Virus record (IMG/VR): IMGVR_UViG_3300009162_000019
Location: 1 to 26,836 of that record
DNA length: 26,836 bases
Source: a virus
Strand: one strand, 5' to 3'
Positions within the stretch are counted from its first letter, which is position 1. The number at the start of each line of letters is the position of its first letter. Position numbers and translations under genes: made by a program. Of this stretch, positions 2,158-14,217 are shown one piece after another. The notes beneath the pieces were generated by a model. The model ran no database searches, was not told the DNA's origin, and was given only the letters and a program-made list of their open reading frames with translations.

Positions 2158-2717
2158 CAACCGTCGCCCTGCCCGGCCGCCGGCCATTCACCGGCCGCCG
2201 GCTCCAGCGGCCCGGCCGCCAACTGCGGCAACGCCGCCGCGGCAAGGAGCCCGTTCCGCCACGCGTCCATCACGTCGGACGGGCCCGTCTGCGTCATCCG
2301 GACCGAGTGTCCGCGCGCCCGCGCCGGGCGGATCGCGACGCCAGGCACCTCGTGGATCACACCCGTCTCAGGGTCGGCCCACTCGGCGCTGTTCGCGGCG
2401 GTCATCTGCGCGAGGAGCTTGGTGCGGAACGCTCCCCGCACTTCGGCGACGAACCGGCGCTCGATCTCCGAGTCATAGTGCTCCATGACCCACGCCTTGA
2501 ACGCGGTCTCGTCGACCACCTGCGCTTCCGCACTGCCCTTGACCAGGCTGACCATGGCGACCGTCGTCCCGTCCGGGAGAGCCGCGGCGACCCGCTGCGT
2601 ATTCGACTCCTCGAGGAGCGACTGCACCTGCTTCCGCTTCGTCTGGTAGGCCGCGTTCACGACGTCGAGGAGCGTCTTGAGGTAAGCCTCCTCGGCGGCC
2701 GCATCCTTCAGGCTCAC
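2157..2717 (-). CDS. Unknown protein adjacent to ERF recombinase
   Basis: A 186-aa protein. The GTG start at 2717 overlaps the ERF stop (GTGA at 2714-2717). The N-terminal third is helical (DAAAEEAYLKTLLDVVNAAY, then QTKRKQVQSLLEES). The middle is a mixed segment (VAAALPDGTTVAMVSLVKG). The C-terminal part has HEVPGVAIRPARARGHSVRM and then DVMDAWRNGLL, a pattern I associate with conserved actinophage proteins of unknown function next to recombination genes. The tail is Ala/Pro-rich. Immediate coupling to ERF suggests a recombination accessory role, for example modulating annealing or host nucleases. That is inference; no catalytic motif is visible. Confidence 0.65.
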   Translation of the reverse strand: MSLKDAAAEEAYLKTLLDVVNAAYQTKRKQVQSLLEESNTQRVAAALPDGTTVAMVSLVKGSAEAQVVDETAFKAWVMEHYDSEIERRFVAEVRGAFRTKLLAQMTAANSAEWADPETGVIHEVPGVAIRPARARGHSVRMTQTGPSDVMDAWRNGLLAAAALPQLAAGPLEPAAGEWPAAGQGDG

Positions 2718-3472
2718 GGCTTGCCGCCCATCATCCGGTACGCCTCCATGTACTGCGCCGTGGTGCCCTGCTCGATCGGGCACCCGTAGGCCGCCTGGAA
2801 CTGGTCCGCGAGTCCGCTCGTGAAGTTGGCGAGGGCCGCTTGTCCCTCCATCGCGGACCGGGCGGCGGCGCGCTGCACGGGGTCGTCCGCCGCCGGCCGG
2901 GCGGCCGGCCTCTGCTGTGCGGGCGCCGGCCGGGATGACTCCCACTCCGGCTCCTGTTCAGTCGGGCGTCCCTTCCGCGCGCGGCCCTGACCCGCGGGCG
3001 GGTTCTCGGGGTGGTGCCGGTCCCCGTCGTCGATGCTCTTCGCGTCCACCGGGATCATGAACACCTGGAGCAGGAAGTACTTGAGTGCCGCCGACATGGC
3101 CTTGTTCGTGGCCTTGTCGGCGAAGTCGGACGCCTCACCCGGGACGGTCGCCTCGACGTAGTCACCGTTCGGCCCGTACAGCCGGTAGCGCATGGTGAGG
3201 TAGACCGCCGTCATCTTCTCGCCGCGACGCTCGGCGCGGGAGTCGATGACGGTGGGGAGGAGGAACATGCCGTGCCTGCGCATCGGGCCGGCGACCGCGG
3301 ACATGAGGTCGTCGATGCCGCGGAACCGGTACTTCTGTGCTTCGTTCCGCTGGTCCTTGCCGACGGGGGCGATGTCGCCCATGACGCGGGTGAGGGCCTG
3401 GAACACGTTCGGTACGGCGGGGTCCGCCGCCCCTTCCGGGGCGGCGGCGGTCTGGTCGTCGGTCATGGTCAT
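2714..3472 (-). CDS. erf: ERF-family single-strand annealing protein
   Basis: A 252-aa recombination protein of the ERF family, which binds single-stranded DNA and anneals complementary strands, for example to circularise the genome or during replication. The ERF domain spans about residues 20-145: VFQALTRVMGDIAPVGKD, YRFRGIDDLMSAV at 48-60, GEASDFADKATNKAMSAALK at 112-131 and FLLQVFMIPVD. The last two blocks are the family signature. The C-terminus (about 155-252) is a Pro/Arg/Ala-rich linker plus a short helical tail, as usual. The ATG at 3472 overlaps the stop of the upstream gene (ATGA) and follows GGAAAG. An ATG two codons later is also possible. This is a confident family call. Confidence 0.93.
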   Translation of the reverse strand: MTMTDDQTAAAPEGAADPAVPNVFQALTRVMGDIAPVGKDQRNEAQKYRFRGIDDLMSAVAGPMRRHGMFLLPTVIDSRAERRGEKMTAVYLTMRYRLYGPNGDYVEATVPGEASDFADKATNKAMSAALKYFLLQVFMIPVDAKSIDDGDRHHPENPPAGQGRARKGRPTEQEPEWESSRPAPAQQRPAARPAADDPVQRAAARSAMEGQAALANFTSGLADQFQAAYGCPIEQGTTAQYMEAYRMMGGKP

Positions 3473-5680: not shown

Positions 5681-5709
5681 TTGACAGAGGCTGAGCGGTC
5701 CGGAAGGAT
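5681..5709 (+). promoter_or_regulatory. Promoter driving the structured RNA region
   Basis: Perfect -35 TTGACA (5681-5686) with the CAGGGG extension, a 17-nt spacer and -10 AAGGAT (5704-5709, one change from the streptomycete TAGGAT). Predicted start near 5716. There is no credible protein gene downstream before the terminator at 6073. Confidence 0.65.
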
Positions 5710-5722
5710 AGGCATCGCAAGA

Positions 5723-5753
5723 CACCAGAGCGGGATGAGCCTAGGCTCTGGTG
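5723..5753 (+). ncRNA. 5' hairpin of the structured transcript
   Basis: CACCAGAGC (5723-5731) pairs perfectly with GCTCTGGTG (5745-5753), 9 bp with a 13-nt loop. It lies about 7 nt after the predicted start of transcription. A second, smaller hairpin follows at 5762-5783 (CCCG/CGGG plus a G-U). Together they could protect the 5' end of the RNA. Confidence 0.5.
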
Positions 5754-5784
5754 AGAGGCTGGCCCGGTCGCATTCCAACGGGTG

Positions 5785-5847
5785 GCGCGTGAAGAGCAGC
5801 CGAAAGACCGCTCGGTACCAAGACGGGTTCGAGGCCCGTCACGCGCA
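5785..5847 (+). ncRNA. tRNA-like element 1, lacking a normal anticodon arm
   Basis: A perfect 7-bp acceptor-like stem GCGCGTG (5785-5791) / CACGCGC (5840-5846) is followed by A5847. It directly abuts a canonical T-arm: ACGGG, loop TTCGAGG, CCCGT (5823-5839). Only 31 nt lie between, too few for both D and anticodon arms. They can form either GAGC/GCTC (5794-5797/5810-5813, 12-nt loop lacking the GG of a D-loop) or GCCGA/TCGGT (5799-5803/5812-5816, 8-nt loop lacking U33). At 63 nt it cannot be an ordinary tRNA. It may be a tRNA mimic, a processing signal for RNase P, or a decayed tRNA. Confidence 0.5.
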
Positions 5848-5926
5848 CAGGAGTCAAACGATGATCGGACGAGACCGTGTGCTCACACCTAGTGAGACGG
5901 GCCGTCGTTCGGACTAGAGACTCCTG
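5848..5926 (+). ncRNA. Multibranched stem enclosing a ribosome-binding site and an 18-codon ORF
   Basis: CAGGAGTC (5848-5855) pairs perfectly with GACTCCTG (5919-5926). Inside are GTGT/ACAC (5877-5880/5885-5888) and CTAGT/ACTAG (5889-5893/5913-5917), the latter enclosing GACG/CGTC (5896-5899/5903-5906). The outer stem contains AGGAG at an ideal 7 nt from ATG 5861. It therefore looks like a translational switch or simply a junction of the larger RNA. Confidence 0.45.
5861..5917 (+). CDS. Possible 18-aa peptide in the structured RNA
   Basis: ATG 5861 to TAG 5915-5917 encodes MIGRDRVLTPSETGRRSD, preceded by AGGAG with a 7-nt spacer. No homology can be claimed. The same bases form a multibranched structure that would hide the ribosome-binding site. 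The ORF may be a leader peptide, or chance. It does not end in the small hydrophobic residues of a tmRNA tag. Confidence 0.25.
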   Translation: MIGRDRVLTPSETGRRSD

Positions 5927-5946
5927 GCGACGGCCGTAAAACGTGG

Positions 5947-6071
5947 CGCGTGTTGGCAGAGAGGCCTAATGCAACCCCTACGGGCTGTGGGGGTGTGAGA
6001 GCAGACCGAGCGTCCCTAGGGGATTGACGCAAGGAAACTCAGAACCGTGGGTTCAAATCCCACACACGCAC
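5947..6071 (+). ncRNA. tRNA-like element 2, with an aberrant anticodon arm and an extra arm
   Basis: The 3' end is a textbook T-arm (GTGGG, TTCAAAT, CCCAC, 6047-6063) abutting ACACGCA (6064-6070). That strand pairs with CGCGTGT (5947-5953) in 6 of 7 positions (C-A at the end). T5954 and a D-arm follow (GCA 5956-5958 / TGC 5970-5972; loop GAGAGGCCTAA with the GG pair). Next, instead of a 17-nt anticodon arm, comes an 8-bp stem (5974-5981/5987-5994) with a 5-nt loop and no U33. An extra arm follows: TGAG/CTCA (5996-5999/6038-6041) around GCGTC/GACGC (6010-6014/6026-6030). TAGGGG (6017-6022) could alternatively pair with CCCCTA (5975-5980). At 125 nt this is a five-arm structure and not a standard tRNA. 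Confidence 0.55.
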
Positions 6072-6072
6072 T

Positions 6073-6105
6073 CCCGCCCGGCCGTCTACCTGTCGGCCGG
6101 GCGGG
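6073..6105 (+). terminator. Terminator of the structured RNA transcript
   Basis: CCCGCCCGGCCG (6073-6084) pairs perfectly with CGGCCGGGCGGG (6094-6105), 12 bp with a 9-nt loop. It begins one base after the end of tRNA-like element 2, so the RNA would end with that element. Confidence 0.8.
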
Positions 6106-6159: not shown

Positions 6160-6198
6160 AGAGACCCCCTTCCCGAGTGGCCCGGGAAGGGGGTCTCT
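6160..6198 (-). terminator. Terminator of the late structural operon
   Basis: AGAGACCCCCTTCCCG (6160-6175) and CGGGAAGGGGGTCTCT (6183-6198) are perfect complements, 16 bp with a 7-nt loop. It lies 9 nt after the holin stop codon and would end leftward late transcription. It is symmetrical, so it could also stop rightward read-through. Between it and 6105 (6106-6159) I see only a run of C (6131-6139) and nothing else. Confidence 0.85.
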
Positions 6199-6207
6199 GT
6201 CGTCTGC

Positions 6208-10016: not shown

Positions 10017-11473
10017 CAGACCGTCGCCTGGAAGTTGTCGAAGAAAAAGTTGATGGGCAGCGGGTTCGTGAACCCGGCCGTGGTCGTCGAGCGAACCCCG
10101 ACGTTCGCCGGCAGGGTGAGATCCGGATCGGACGCCGTCACCATCCAGCCGGCCGGCTCCGCACCGGACGTCAGCCACACCTTCGCCATCAGGTTCGTCC
10201 CGTCCACCCGGAACCGCATCGTGTAGATCGCGTTCGCCACGTACACCAGACCGGTGGCGAGGAACGCAAGCTGTGTCTCCGCGTTCGCGATGCGCTTGCG
10301 CACCGCAAGCGTGATTGCGCCACCGACCGCTACCTGGCAGCGGGCCATGTAGAAATCAGCCGTCGAGAGCGCGCGCGCGACGACGAACGGGAAGAACTGG
10401 CCCCCGGTGAGCGGCACCGCGTCGATGGCCCAGTCGCACGTCACCGTGACGTCTGCGGTAGGCCACGGCGCCAACGACGTCATCGTGACACCAGCCGCGC
10501 CATGCGATTGCACGCCGCGGGTGCCGTTGACGGAGTAGTTCGCGCCGGCCCCGCCGGTCGTTGTCCACACCTGCCCGGTGTCCGCGGTCCCCCACCCGCC
10601 AGCGACCACACGCGTGAACGTGTCCCGGAACGGCACAACCGGCGACGTCGCCCCGCCCGGGCACGTCGCGGTGCCGGCCGCGATCTCTCCCCACGTCGCC
10701 CCAGAGGCGGTCATATCCGCGAACGTCGGCCACACCGATTGGACCGCGCACCAGTTCGCGCACACTGTGCCCTGTTGCGGGCCCGTGGGCCGGTCGACCG
10801 CCGTGAATGGCGCTTCCCACACCCGGTGCGGCTTGCGCTGGTCAACCGCCAGGTACTCCTCCACTAGATCGCCGGGCTGCACGATGACGTCCGGGAACCC
10901 GTAGACCGCAGGCAACTGGAGCTGGAGCGGGCCCCCGCCGGCGAACAGCGTCTCGACGGAATCCTTGGCGGCGAGGGACTTCGAGAAGAGCTTCATGCTG
11001 CCATCGAGCCGCTTGCGGACGCCATAGATGTCCGCGGGCACGCGCGCGTTGTAGACGTCGAACAGGTTCGCGTCGGCCCGGTACGTTTTGTTACCCAGGC
11101 CGGCCCACACCAGGAACGGGGCGCCAGGGTTGCACACCGCGTCGAGAGCCTGGCTAGCGTTCGGACAGAACTCGAATTCCAGGTTTGCCCACGGGCGCAG
11201 CGGGTCCTTGACGAGCACGGTGCCCGTCGAGGCTTCCGTGAACGGTCCCTGCACGATCTGCGTGCCGCCCGGTGACCCGGTCCACCGGTACCAGATAGCG
11301 ACGTCAAGCGGGGCCGTGGTGTCGTAGTACGAACCCATCTGGCTGAGCAGGTCAACGGTGTCCAGAAGTGTCCAGGGGCCCGTCGCGGACGCGCCCCGTT
11401 CGACCGTGGCCGTGGTCTGCGTGCCCGGCGCGGCAGTGAAGTCGACCGTCAGGTAGACGATTCCGTCCGCCAT
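10016..11473 (-). CDS. Large minor tail protein with lectin-like C-terminal domain
   Basis: A 485-aa protein. The N-terminal part (about 1-90, ADGIVYLTVDFTAAPGTQTT) is an FN3-like or structural beta domain. The middle (about 90-260) contains a tail-specific region with VPADIYGVRKRLDGSMKLFS. The C-terminal part (about 290-485: FRDTFTRVVAGGWGTADTGQ onward) has the pattern of concanavalin A/LamG-like glycan-binding domains. It directly follows the tape measure gene (TGATG overlap at 11473), the usual place of the distal tail protein. Confidence 0.65.
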   Translation of the reverse strand: MADGIVYLTVDFTAAPGTQTTATVERGASATGPWTLLDTVDLLSQMGSYYDTTAPLDVAIWYRWTGSPGGTQIVQGPFTEASTGTVLVKDPLRPWANLEFEFCPNASQALDAVCNPGAPFLVWAGLGNKTYRADANLFDVYNARVPADIYGVRKRLDGSMKLFSKSLAAKDSVETLFAGGGPLQLQLPAVYGFPDVIVQPGDLVEEYLAVDQRKPHRVWEAPFTAVDRPTGPQQGTVCANWCAVQSVWPTFADMTASGATWGEIAAGTATCPGGATSPVVPFRDTFTRVVAGGWGTADTGQVWTTTGGAGANYSVNGTRGVQSHGAAGVTMTSLAPWPTADVTVTCDWAIDAVPLTGGQFFPFVVARALSTADFYMARCQVAVGGAITLAVRKRIANAETQLAFLATGLVYVANAIYTMRFRVDGTNLMAKVWLTSGAEPAGWMVTASDPDLTLPANVGVRSTTTAGFTNPLPINFFFDNFQATV

Positions 11474-14217
11474 CAGCGGCGCACCCCCTGGATCATCAGC
11501 CGGTCACGTGCCTGGTTGGACTGCGCGATCCGGGAGTCGACGTGAGCGTTGATCAGCTCGTTACCGAGATACACCTGAACCACCGGCGCCCCGGGATTGA
11601 GCTGCGGAAGAGCCAGCGTCTGCCCGTTCGGCAGGGCGAACGAGGGAACCACCGAGGCGATCCCCTGGAGATCCGCGCGGAGGTCCGGAAGCTTCGCGGC
11701 CATACCGTCGAGGAACCCTTGCATGGTGTCCTCGCCCATCTCCATCATCACCCGGGACGGGGAGTGAATGTCGAGGGCGCCCGCGAGGCCGCCAGACACA
11801 ACGTTCGCGATCTCCGAGGCGATGGAGCGCAGCTCTCCCAGCTTGGAGGCGATACCGTCGATGAACCCCTGGACCAGTTGGCGGCCGCGGTCCAGGAGAG
11901 CGGTACCGACTCCGGCGAGCGCGCCCGCCACCCGGTCGGGCAGCGACTTCACATCGGCAATGGAGTCCTCGCCCATCTGCCGGATCTTCGCGACGAAATC
12001 GTCCTTGATCTCCAGCACCTTCTGCCCGATCCAGCGAGCCAGACGGATCAGCTGGTTCTGGACGCCGTCAACGAATCCGATGATGAACTCGGTGGCCTTC
12101 TCCGCCATGTCCTTGATGAGGTCCTTGGCATGCTGCCACGCCGCGGAGAAGTCGCCCTTGAGGAAGTCGGCGAGGATCGTCAGGGCCGGGACGACGATGC
12201 CGTTGATGAAGTTCACGACGATGCCCAGACCGCCCTCGATCAGCTTGAGCAGGAGATCGATAAGCGGCTGGATGACGGGCATCAGCTTCTCAAGGAAGGT
12301 CAGCTCCAGCTCGAGGAACGCGACGATGACCGGGGCCAGAGCAGACAGGAGGTTCCCGAACGTCTCACCCAGCTTGGCGAGCGCCGGCCCGAGCTCCACC
12401 AGGATCTGCGTGAGAATCGGGAAGATCTTCGTGGCGAGTTCGATGAACGGGGGGAGGATCTTCGGCAGGACGTCCGTGGCCAGCGTCGTGAAGATCGGCA
12501 GGAGCTGCGTGGCCAGGTTCTTCGCAAGCTGCTCGATGAACGGGGTGATCTCGAAGAACACCCGCGCGAGCGCGTTGAATAGCGGCGTCAACGCAGGGAG
12601 GATCGCGGCAACCAGCGTCCCGAACAGGTCGATGATCGGGGCCGCGGCCTCGACGAGCTTCCCGAACACGTTGGCCAGCGACACCAGAACCGGACCCAGC
12701 GCCGTCACGATCTTCGTCAGCGCGCCACCGAGAGTCTTCACCAGGGACTGCACCGGGCCCGCGAGTGCCTGGAAGATCGGGCCCAGAGCCTGGATGGCCT
12801 GAGAGATGATCGGCAGGACCGTCGTGGCGATCACGCTCATTGTCTGCGACAGAGCCTTCAACGCATCCTGGAACCCTTGCGTGGCCGTCACGTCCTCGAA
12901 CGCCTGAGTGATCTTCTCCAGCGTCCCGAACAGGCCATCACCCTGCGTCTGGAACCCGTCAATGATGTTGCCCAGACCACCGAAGATGTTCCCCGCGATC
13001 CGGCCAAGCTGCTTCAACGCCTCAACCGCGCGATCGATCGCCTTCTCCAGCGCCCCCGAATCGAACGCCTTCTCCAGCCTGTCAGAGATCTCCGTCGCCG
13101 CACCGCCGGCCGCCGCCGTGATCCGGCCGAACGCGGGGGTGGCGGCCGCCGCGATCTGCAACAGGCCGGTGACGATCTGCCCGGGCACCGCGTTCAGGTT
13201 CTGGAGAGCCTGCCGCGAACCGTCCAGCGCCACACCGAGGGTCCCGTTCTTCCCCATCCTGGTAGCTGCATCCACGGCACCCAGAGCCATCGCATTCAGC
13301 TCGCCGGACGCCTGGAACAAGGCCTCTTTGACATCAGGGAGCGTGGCCTCCGACAGCTGGTGCAGGGCGCCAGCGAAGCCCTGAAAAAAGTTCTCCTGCA
13401 CCCCCTGCTGGATCGCCTTGAACTCCGACTTCATCTTGCTCAGCTCGGTGACGAACGAGCGGGCCCGCGGCGACAGCTGCTCCATCGCCTTCGCGAGATC
13501 CTCAGGCTTCGCCTCGGGGTCGAACGCAGTAGTGATCGCCTCCCCAACCCCCTGCATCGCCAGCTTGAGCGTCCCCGACGCAAGCTGCACCGTCAGCAGA
13601 CCAGACACCGCCAGAGCGGCCGCCGGAGCAACCGACTCCAGCGACGTCACCAGACCGGCCAGGAGAGGCGCAGCCGAGCCCGCGGCCGCCCCGATCCCGC
13701 CGATGCCTGCCGCCGCCCGCCCGAGTCCCGGCAGCATCCCCGAGATGCCGCGCGCAATCCCCGCGATCGCGTTCCGGCCCCGCCCGTCCCGGTCCACATC
13801 GACATCGATTTCGATGTCGTCCGCTTCGGCCTCAAGCTCAGCCGTGATGGCGGCAAGCTCAGCGTCGAGGGCGGCGATGTTGGCGTCGAGTTCGGCGTCG
13901 AGCTGGATCGTCGCGGCCCGGTCCTCCGCAATGTCGATGACGTTGTCGAGTTCGCGGAGCAGATCCTCCAGCGTCTCCAGCGTGTCGAGTTCCGCCGTCA
14001 GCTCGACCCCGGGGAACGCGGCTTCCGTCTGGCGGACGATGGCGTCCAGGTCACCGAGGAGATCCGCGACCGCGTTACGCCGGTCCATCGTCGCCTCGAG
14101 CTCGACGTCCGGTGCGCCGGCTTCCGCGACCGCGATGATCCGCTCGAGCTCATCCTGGAGCTCCGGTAGCGCGCCAGCCGTCGAGATGACCAGATCAACT
14201 TCCGCTTCGGACGCCAT
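11473..14217 (-). CDS. Tape measure protein
   Basis: A 914-aa protein, the longest in the window, which sets tail length and is threaded in the tail tube. The N-terminal 160 residues are acidic coiled coil (ELQDELERIIAVAEAGAPDV; DLEEL-type repeats). Gly/Ala-rich hydrophobic stretches follow (about 165-260). A long central part is rich in amphipathic helices with recurring LGPAL/LPIF motifs, and the C-terminus carries the common signature ALDIHSPSRVMMEMGEDTMQ. At about 1.5 Angstrom per residue the tail would be about 135 nm long, a general rule and not a measurement. The ATG at 14217 follows GGGAGG. It sits directly after the assembly chaperones, as expected. Confidence 0.93.
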   Translation of the reverse strand: MASEAEVDLVISTAGALPELQDELERIIAVAEAGAPDVELEATMDRRNAVADLLGDLDAIVRQTEAAFPGVELTAELDTLETLEDLLRELDNVIDIAEDRAATIQLDAELDANIAALDAELAAITAELEAEADDIEIDVDVDRDGRGRNAIAGIARGISGMLPGLGRAAAGIGGIGAAAGSAAPLLAGLVTSLESVAPAAALAVSGLLTVQLASGTLKLAMQGVGEAITTAFDPEAKPEDLAKAMEQLSPRARSFVTELSKMKSEFKAIQQGVQENFFQGFAGALHQLSEATLPDVKEALFQASGELNAMALGAVDAATRMGKNGTLGVALDGSRQALQNLNAVPGQIVTGLLQIAAAATPAFGRITAAAGGAATEISDRLEKAFDSGALEKAIDRAVEALKQLGRIAGNIFGGLGNIIDGFQTQGDGLFGTLEKITQAFEDVTATQGFQDALKALSQTMSVIATTVLPIISQAIQALGPIFQALAGPVQSLVKTLGGALTKIVTALGPVLVSLANVFGKLVEAAAPIIDLFGTLVAAILPALTPLFNALARVFFEITPFIEQLAKNLATQLLPIFTTLATDVLPKILPPFIELATKIFPILTQILVELGPALAKLGETFGNLLSALAPVIVAFLELELTFLEKLMPVIQPLIDLLLKLIEGGLGIVVNFINGIVVPALTILADFLKGDFSAAWQHAKDLIKDMAEKATEFIIGFVDGVQNQLIRLARWIGQKVLEIKDDFVAKIRQMGEDSIADVKSLPDRVAGALAGVGTALLDRGRQLVQGFIDGIASKLGELRSIASEIANVVSGGLAGALDIHSPSRVMMEMGEDTMQGFLDGMAAKLPDLRADLQGIASVVPSFALPNGQTLALPQLNPGAPVVQVYLGNELINAHVDSRIAQSNQARDRLMIQGVRR

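Follow-up and report, generated by a model that had tools for sequence, protein, structure and literature searches.

The bacterial Y RNA YrlA contains a tRNA-like module and is an example of tRNA mimicry by a non-coding RNA, a property shared by the RNA described here. The bacterial seryl- and leucyl-tRNA synthetases (SerRS and LeuRS) can dispense with the anticodon. A pseudo-tRNA, tRNA-Other, has been described in Bacillus cereus (PMC3399842), and Lak megaphages have tRNAs with introns (PMC6784885). It was also reported that phage tRNAs counter tRNA-targeting defences (PMC10264068, PMC11555353). The locus presented here is a phage RNA unit that is predicted to make two non-decoding tRNA mimics, of which one is certain and the other probable, and it is characterized by conservation, tRNA-like anatomy, covarying helices, a missing decoding loop, and promoter-like and terminator-like flanks.

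The window, i.e., the whole stretch of DNA that was analysed, is an IMG/VR record of 26,836 bases. Its minus strand carries phage structural genes (tape measure at 11473-14217, major head protein, and portal) and, at 2714-3472, a gene overlapping a stretch of ~320 bases with 77% DNA identity to the ERF recombinase gene of the Streptomyces phages Tubberson and SoJo. Between the ERF-region block and the structural-gene block, on the plus strand, is the RNA gene, which we read as a small gene for non-coding RNA in an actinophage, probably one of Streptomyces. No candidate partner gene was recognized in the window.

The original prediction comprised a consensus promoter, a transcript of about 390 nt with continuous secondary structure and two non-canonical tRNA-like elements, and a terminator; when the sequence was re-read, the promoter, both acceptors, the T-arms, and the hairpin were all found at their reported positions. 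The putative promoter (5681-5709; this and all following features on the plus strand) has a perfect -35 box (TTGACA, 5681-5686; 0.035 expected by chance per 450 nt) and a 17-nt spacer, but the -10 box (AAGGAT, 5704-5709) is only moderate and a strict E. coli-type scan gives no score. In relatives, TTGACA (G003, L013, and L118) or TTGACG (G002) also lies upstream of the RNA. The transcript then contains a 5′ hairpin (5723-5753; fold z -3.05), element 1 (5785-5847), a structured spacer (5848-5946; fold z -2.5 for 5850-5940), and element 2 (5947-6071). The terminator is present as a GC-rich hairpin (6073-6105; recognized from sequence and fold) but lacks a T-run. The fold of the 390-nt transcript is 3.8 SD better than those of dinucleotide shuffles (0 of 100 as good). 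A second strong hairpin (GAGACCCCCTTCCCG..CGGGAAGGGGGTCTC) at 6163-6200 probably serves as terminator for the structural genes that converge with the unit.

Element 2 is a tRNA-like RNA of class II that lacks an anticodon loop. In tRNA numbering, it consists of CGCGTGT (1-7), T8 and G9, a D-arm (GCA-GAGAGGCCTAA-TGC, 5956-5972), A26, an 8-bp hairpin at the anticodon position (ACCCCTAC-GGGCT-GTGGGGGT, 5974-5994), a long variable arm (GAG/CTC, CC/GG, and GCGTC/GACGC, 5997-6040), a T-arm (GTGGG-TTCAAAT-CCCAC, 6047-6063), ACACGCA (66-72), and C73. The true tRNA D-arm, the anticodon-position hairpin, and the variable arm had escaped the original prediction. The acceptor strands (CGCGTGT, 5947-5953, and ACACGCA, 6064-6070) form six of seven pairs with a C1.A72 mismatch, and G(-1) stands opposite C73. 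The D-stem (3/3) and the T-stem (5/5) are fully paired, the D-loop contains GG, and the nucleotides of the tRNA elbow are in place. What is missing is the decoding part, i.e., a 5-bp anticodon stem, a 7-nt loop, T33, and purine 37; the hairpin found instead has a five-base loop, and relatives have loops of 4 nt at this position. Element 1 has no anticodon arm either, and the claim that neither element forms a normal one is supported. ARAGORN called neither a tRNA nor a tmRNA on the locus, Rfam yielded no credible match (weak chance matches only, under relaxed thresholds), and the YrlA model RF02553 found no match in it; Rfam thus has no description of this RNA. Judged from its sequence, element 2 is very probably a genuine non-decoding tRNA-like RNA.

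CCA is not encoded after the acceptor of element 2, where CTCC is found, and C1.A72 together with G-1:C73 may hinder normal maturation. C73 and the missing CCA also count against the RNA being an aminoacylated, non-translational tRNA (e.g., a seryl donor) that is charged by an anticodon-ignoring synthetase. Although the class II body does resemble tRNA-Ser(UGA), no tRNA-dependent transferase occurred among the genes tested, and we consider such a donor very unlikely.

Because element 2 recurs in diverged phage contigs, it is more than a chance structure. The relative contig G003, whose tape measure is 52% identical, has element 2 at 72% DNA identity, together with a TTGACA promoter and a second acceptor/T-arm element upstream of it. 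Three other relatives (L013, L015, and L016) were retrieved by a conserved 19-mer and one (L118) by a wider pattern; all contigs of this window family are metagenomic. A covariance model scores the family (G003, L013/L015/L016, and L118) at 108-126 bits (E 1e-26 to 1e-31), with a model built from four members. These values express family coherence rather than independent discovery, since the scored set contains the training sequences and L013 has near-copies in L015 and L016. Members of the wider class that were tested with the same model mostly received 24-47 bits. A blastn search of the region and 17 class representatives against isolates gave no matches, and the four matches inspected from a pattern scan of genome contigs were unrelated sequence. 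The relatives have a common neighbourhood, in the order exonuclease, RNA, and a small gene of the DNA-metabolism region: the exonuclease gene precedes the RNA in G003 and L118, and the small gene, which starts with a ...DPF... motif, lies 3′ of it in G003, G002, L118, and L013 (the L013 copy is phrog_870). A conserved stretch (AGATCT...AGAGATCTGGT...GGGAAGTCCATCCC) shared by G002 (L010:3465-3600) and L118 (L118:8028-8170) after the tRNA-like elements is perhaps a further RNA domain.

The acceptor, including its C1.A72 mismatch, is identical throughout the window family and therefore shows no covariation, and the D- and T-loops are conserved as well. On the other hand, the stems of the D-arm, T-arm, and anticodon-position hairpin and the helices of the variable arm vary between members with pairing preserved. 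The D-stem becomes GCG/CGC in L118 and the T-stem ACGGG/CCCGT in L013. With helices assigned by hand, the inner variable-arm helix reads GCGTC/GACGC in the window, CCGGG/CCCGG in L007 (G003), CGTCC/GGACG in L013, and GGTCC/GGGCC in L118, and the outer one GAG/CTC, GAT/ATC, GCC/GGC, and GTG/CAC, respectively. When strands of the anticodon-position and variable-arm helices are exchanged between members, pairing reaches only 25-67%. The anticodon-position stem is capped by GGGCT in the window and by GNRA-type caps in the relatives (GAAG in L007, GGAA in L013, and GAAA in L118). Such covariation already disfavours the view that the elements are decaying tRNA pseudogenes. A missing decoding loop and two unequally complete elements would be expected of pseudogenes, but the compensatory changes, the same acceptor in diverged phages, and the retained promoters make decay highly improbable.

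The distribution of conserved parts also bears on a role as processing punctuation, with the tRNA-like folds acting, like mascRNA in MALAT1, as signals at which RNase P/RNase Z would release the leader and spacer RNAs. The elbow and the acceptor are kept, the decoding loop is dispensable, and the spacers between elements are structured, all of which would suit this role. However, it is the tRNA-like parts that are conserved among relatives, while spacer and leader are not recognizably so, and we regard punctuation as quite unlikely.

Element 1 is a mini tRNA-like element, with an acceptor paired at seven of seven positions (GCGCGTG, 5785-5791, and CACGCGC, 5840-5846), a T-arm (5823-5839), and a middle of 31 nt that contains a hairpin and no D-loop GG. 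The element-2 covariance model matches it weakly (E 0.029) and also detects counterparts in G003 (E 0.0025) and, within its own locus, G002 (E 7.5e-4). The upstream element of G002 has the acceptor GGGCGCC/GGCGCTC, that of L118 is a fuller class I tRNA-like RNA (TCCGCAG/TTGCGGA), and in L013/L015/L016 element 2 is present with no detectable element 1. We think it likely that element 1 is real. The picture of a single promoter-to-terminator unit containing two non-canonical tRNA-like elements is supported.

It had further been proposed that GCGTG of element 1 could pair with CACGC of element 2 and close the whole RNA in the manner of a tmRNA. The complementarity exists in the window, but the upstream acceptors of L118 and G002 cannot close on the ACACGC strand and L013 offers no such closure, so there is no case for a conserved contact, and the proposal was abandoned; the two elements of the window simply have one acceptor sequence in common. 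As neither ARAGORN nor Rfam reported a tmRNA match, we virtually discount a tmRNA-like RNA closed in this way. The accompanying remark that the RNA is not a recognizable tmRNA agrees with these searches, and no tag was found.

Comparable RNAs are widespread in phage contigs. A first scan of IMG/VR with the pattern GGCAGAGNGGN{3,7}TGCN{60,90}GGTTCRANTCC, which leaves the acceptor unspecified, returned 50 loci, 24 of them distinct after those with a called tRNA or tmRNA were dropped; 18 of the 24 pair at six or more of seven acceptor positions, compared with a mean of 1.5 (maximum 7) when the 3′ strands were shuffled. A broader pattern gave at least 73 ARAGORN-negative sequences that form six or more pairs in the acceptor. 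Among the matches listed, 69 of 73, in at least 52 sequence groups, have no canonical anticodon arm, where groups are defined by a simple similarity cut-off and the search patterns fix the D- and T-loops. The window family (the window, L013, L004/G003, and L118) accounts for three of these groups, leaving at least about 50 others from two scans for one tRNA body type. In the open-access PMC literature, no description of a class of such RNAs was found. tRNA finders demand an anticodon arm, and RNAs of this kind are consequently missed by standard annotation. Several single loci were also noted. L062:1451-1676 contains two class II tRNA-like elements in tandem (covariance model R1); L160:541-653 is an ARAGORN-negative tRNA-Ser-like gene with a canonical arm, the anticodon TTA, and a long variable arm, possibly a UAA suppressor tRNA; and the 'tRNA-OTHER' gene of Microbacterium phage RunningBrook (L017:1443-1515) seems to have a 6-bp anticodon stem and a 6-nt loop. 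L282 was rejected as a chance match.

The idea that only Ser/Leu-type bodies are involved was discarded, as class I bodies likewise yield ARAGORN-negative tRNA-like RNAs. Among the matches listed for a class I pattern, 61 of 79 ARAGORN-negative ones have 7/7 acceptor pairs, about half of these being intron-type tRNAs, which are a different thing. In two isolated Streptomyces phages, Xkcd426 and phiSAJS1, a tRNA-like RNA of class I that lacks annotation (L339:2475-2577 and L341:2530-2652, respectively) lies downstream of a phrog_870-type gene; in both, the acceptor is paired at 7/7 positions and ARAGORN makes no call. In phages Abt2graduatex2 and YDN12 (L337:2490-2593 and L340:2566-2669), a tRNA-like element has a second T-arm-like hairpin within its middle.

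Phage tRNAs with introns exist (PMC6784885), and 31 of the 65 class I candidates listed become canonical when an insert of 36-57 nt is removed (0.9 expected), which raises the question of whether splicing restores a normal anticodon arm in element 2. However, neither the window RNA nor its relatives can be restored to a canonical anticodon arm by removing one insert, and the anticodon-position hairpins of L007 (14 nt) and of L013 and L118 (16 nt) do not reach the 17-nt length of the canonical arm; an intron-containing tRNA is scarcely conceivable here. In the insert-bearing class I phage tRNA genes themselves (L164-L280, e.g., L170, L221, L231, and L249), the insert mostly lies between positions 28/29 or 29/30, and a hairpin followed by ACAGCAA is common to many of the inserts. 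They may correspond to the 'enigmatic introns' of Lak phages (PMC6784885), which would then be much more widespread than described.

In Streptomyces chromosomes, the class II pattern matched 37 of 394 genomes, a reversed control pattern giving two matches. Most matches belong to one family (L285-L312) with a 5′ hairpin, a 13-bp extended acceptor helix, a D-arm, an anticodon-position arm of 8-10 bp, a variable arm, and a T-arm; it occupies unrelated chromosomal sites, sometimes in two copies per genome, with no recurrent neighbour gene. Across 21 sequences, pairing holds in 94.8% of cells, both sides have changed in 22 pairs (11.1 when shuffled), and the covariation score is 0.320 (0.161 when shuffled). 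One copy, L289, just passes the Rfam tRNA model at 33 bits. A proposed contact of the anticodon-position loop with the variable-arm loop is paired in 93.7% of cells in this family, with double changes at four of six pairs. Two phage members, L034 and L043, show similar loop complementarity by eye, and L023 shows it in the form of a pseudoknot, whereas none was seen in the window family; an automatic test on 42 phage groups among those listed was modestly positive (mean 5.29, against 4.52 when swapped and a maximum of 5.14 in 500 swaps). The window-family model found nothing above 36 bits in 247 Streptomyces genomes, and the window family therefore looks phage-specific. Its best host match is tRNA-Ser(UGA) at ~34-35 bits, with which it has the T-arm GTGGG/TTCAAAT/CCCAC in common. 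The six R1 model matches of about tRNA length that were checked in Streptomyces proved to be true tRNA-Ser.

The 13-bp acceptor helix of the Streptomyces relatives leaves no free 3′ end, which suggests that at least some class members are not processed like tRNA, and because of it part of the class may perhaps serve as a scaffold. The elements of the window might then be modules of a larger regulatory RNA, comparable to Y RNA-like YrlA or B. cereus tRNA-Other, that is never excised and uses the fold for docking. Their position within a 390-nt structured transcript, the extended closing helix and 5′ hairpin in Streptomyces, and the report of tRNA-Other as part of a larger RNA (PMC3399842) agree with this. 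However, a Ro60/TROVE gene is absent from 11 phage records, TROVE is not associated with the Streptomyces RNA (13/24 genomes with the RNA and 16/24 without it), and no YrlA match was obtained; overall, a docking module seems rather unlikely.

Since unannotated RNAs of the same kind are found both in Streptomyces chromosomes and in a variety of unrelated phages, their imitation of tRNA probably serves a purpose outside translation. Among the roles offered in the original prediction (mimic, decoy, or processed regulator), mimic or decoy fits best. The RNA keeps the acceptor stem, the D-loop/T-loop elbow, and the long variable arm of Ser/Leu type; in place of the decoding loop, which is lost, it has a rigid stem with a four- or five-base cap. 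A trans-acting mimic or decoy is the simplest reading, because the retained parts contact processing enzymes, EF-Tu, modification enzymes, and synthetases, the decoding loop is lost, SerRS and LeuRS act independently of the anticodon, and the best host match is tRNA-Ser(UGA). Briefly, the unit would be transcribed from its own promoter and trimmed by host tRNA-processing enzymes, and the trimmed mimic would act in trans by occupying a host protein that contacts the body of tRNA and leaves the anticodon unbound. Candidate targets are seryl-tRNA synthetase, a toxin or defence nuclease directed at the tRNA tail or the tRNA body, and a tRNA-modifying enzyme. We infer transcription, processing, the binding partner, and the benefit to the phage alike, and advance the function of element 2 as a decoy as a plausible but tentative proposal, one that is in line with the defensive use of phage tRNAs.

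More speculative, although possible, is the proposal that phages and Streptomyces have in common a large, as yet unnamed class of RNAs that retain the tRNA body and have a structured hairpin instead of the anticodon arm, the loop of this hairpin docking onto the variable-arm loop in several subfamilies, and that phages deploy such RNAs as trans mimics to disarm host factors, e.g., tRNA-directed immunity. If true, anticodon-less mimics would be a new layer of the phage-host conflict over tRNA immunity, parallel to phage tRNAs. Streptomyces phage isolates carry comparable unannotated RNAs, and Xkcd426 and phiSAJS1 offer a laboratory route by which this could be tested in phage-host pairs.

With regard to the known systems, the window RNA differs from YrlA in having no match to it and in that Ro60 is absent from phages (11 phage records), although a host Ro60 is possible. 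In description, it is, like tRNA-Other of B. cereus, a non-translational tRNA-like RNA beside foreign DNA in a longer transcript (PMC3399842), but tRNA-Other keeps a Trp anticodon. The Lak intron tRNAs (PMC6784885) are likewise phage tRNA-like genes enlarged at the anticodon; however, their anticodon is present once the insert is removed, whereas the window RNA has none. The tRNA-like domain of tmRNA combines, as here, a tRNA-like acceptor and T-arm without an anticodon, but in the window RNA the D-stem of element 2 is a true one, neither an mRNA-like domain nor a tag was found, and the RNA is not one closed molecule. In comparison with class II tRNAs, element 2 lacks an anticodon loop, is ~35-40 nt longer, has the C1.A72 mismatch and C73, and is invisible to ARAGORN; with the nearest of them, Streptomyces tRNA-Ser(UGA), it shares the D-arm with a 3-bp stem and GG, the long variable arm, the T-arm, and the acceptor stem.
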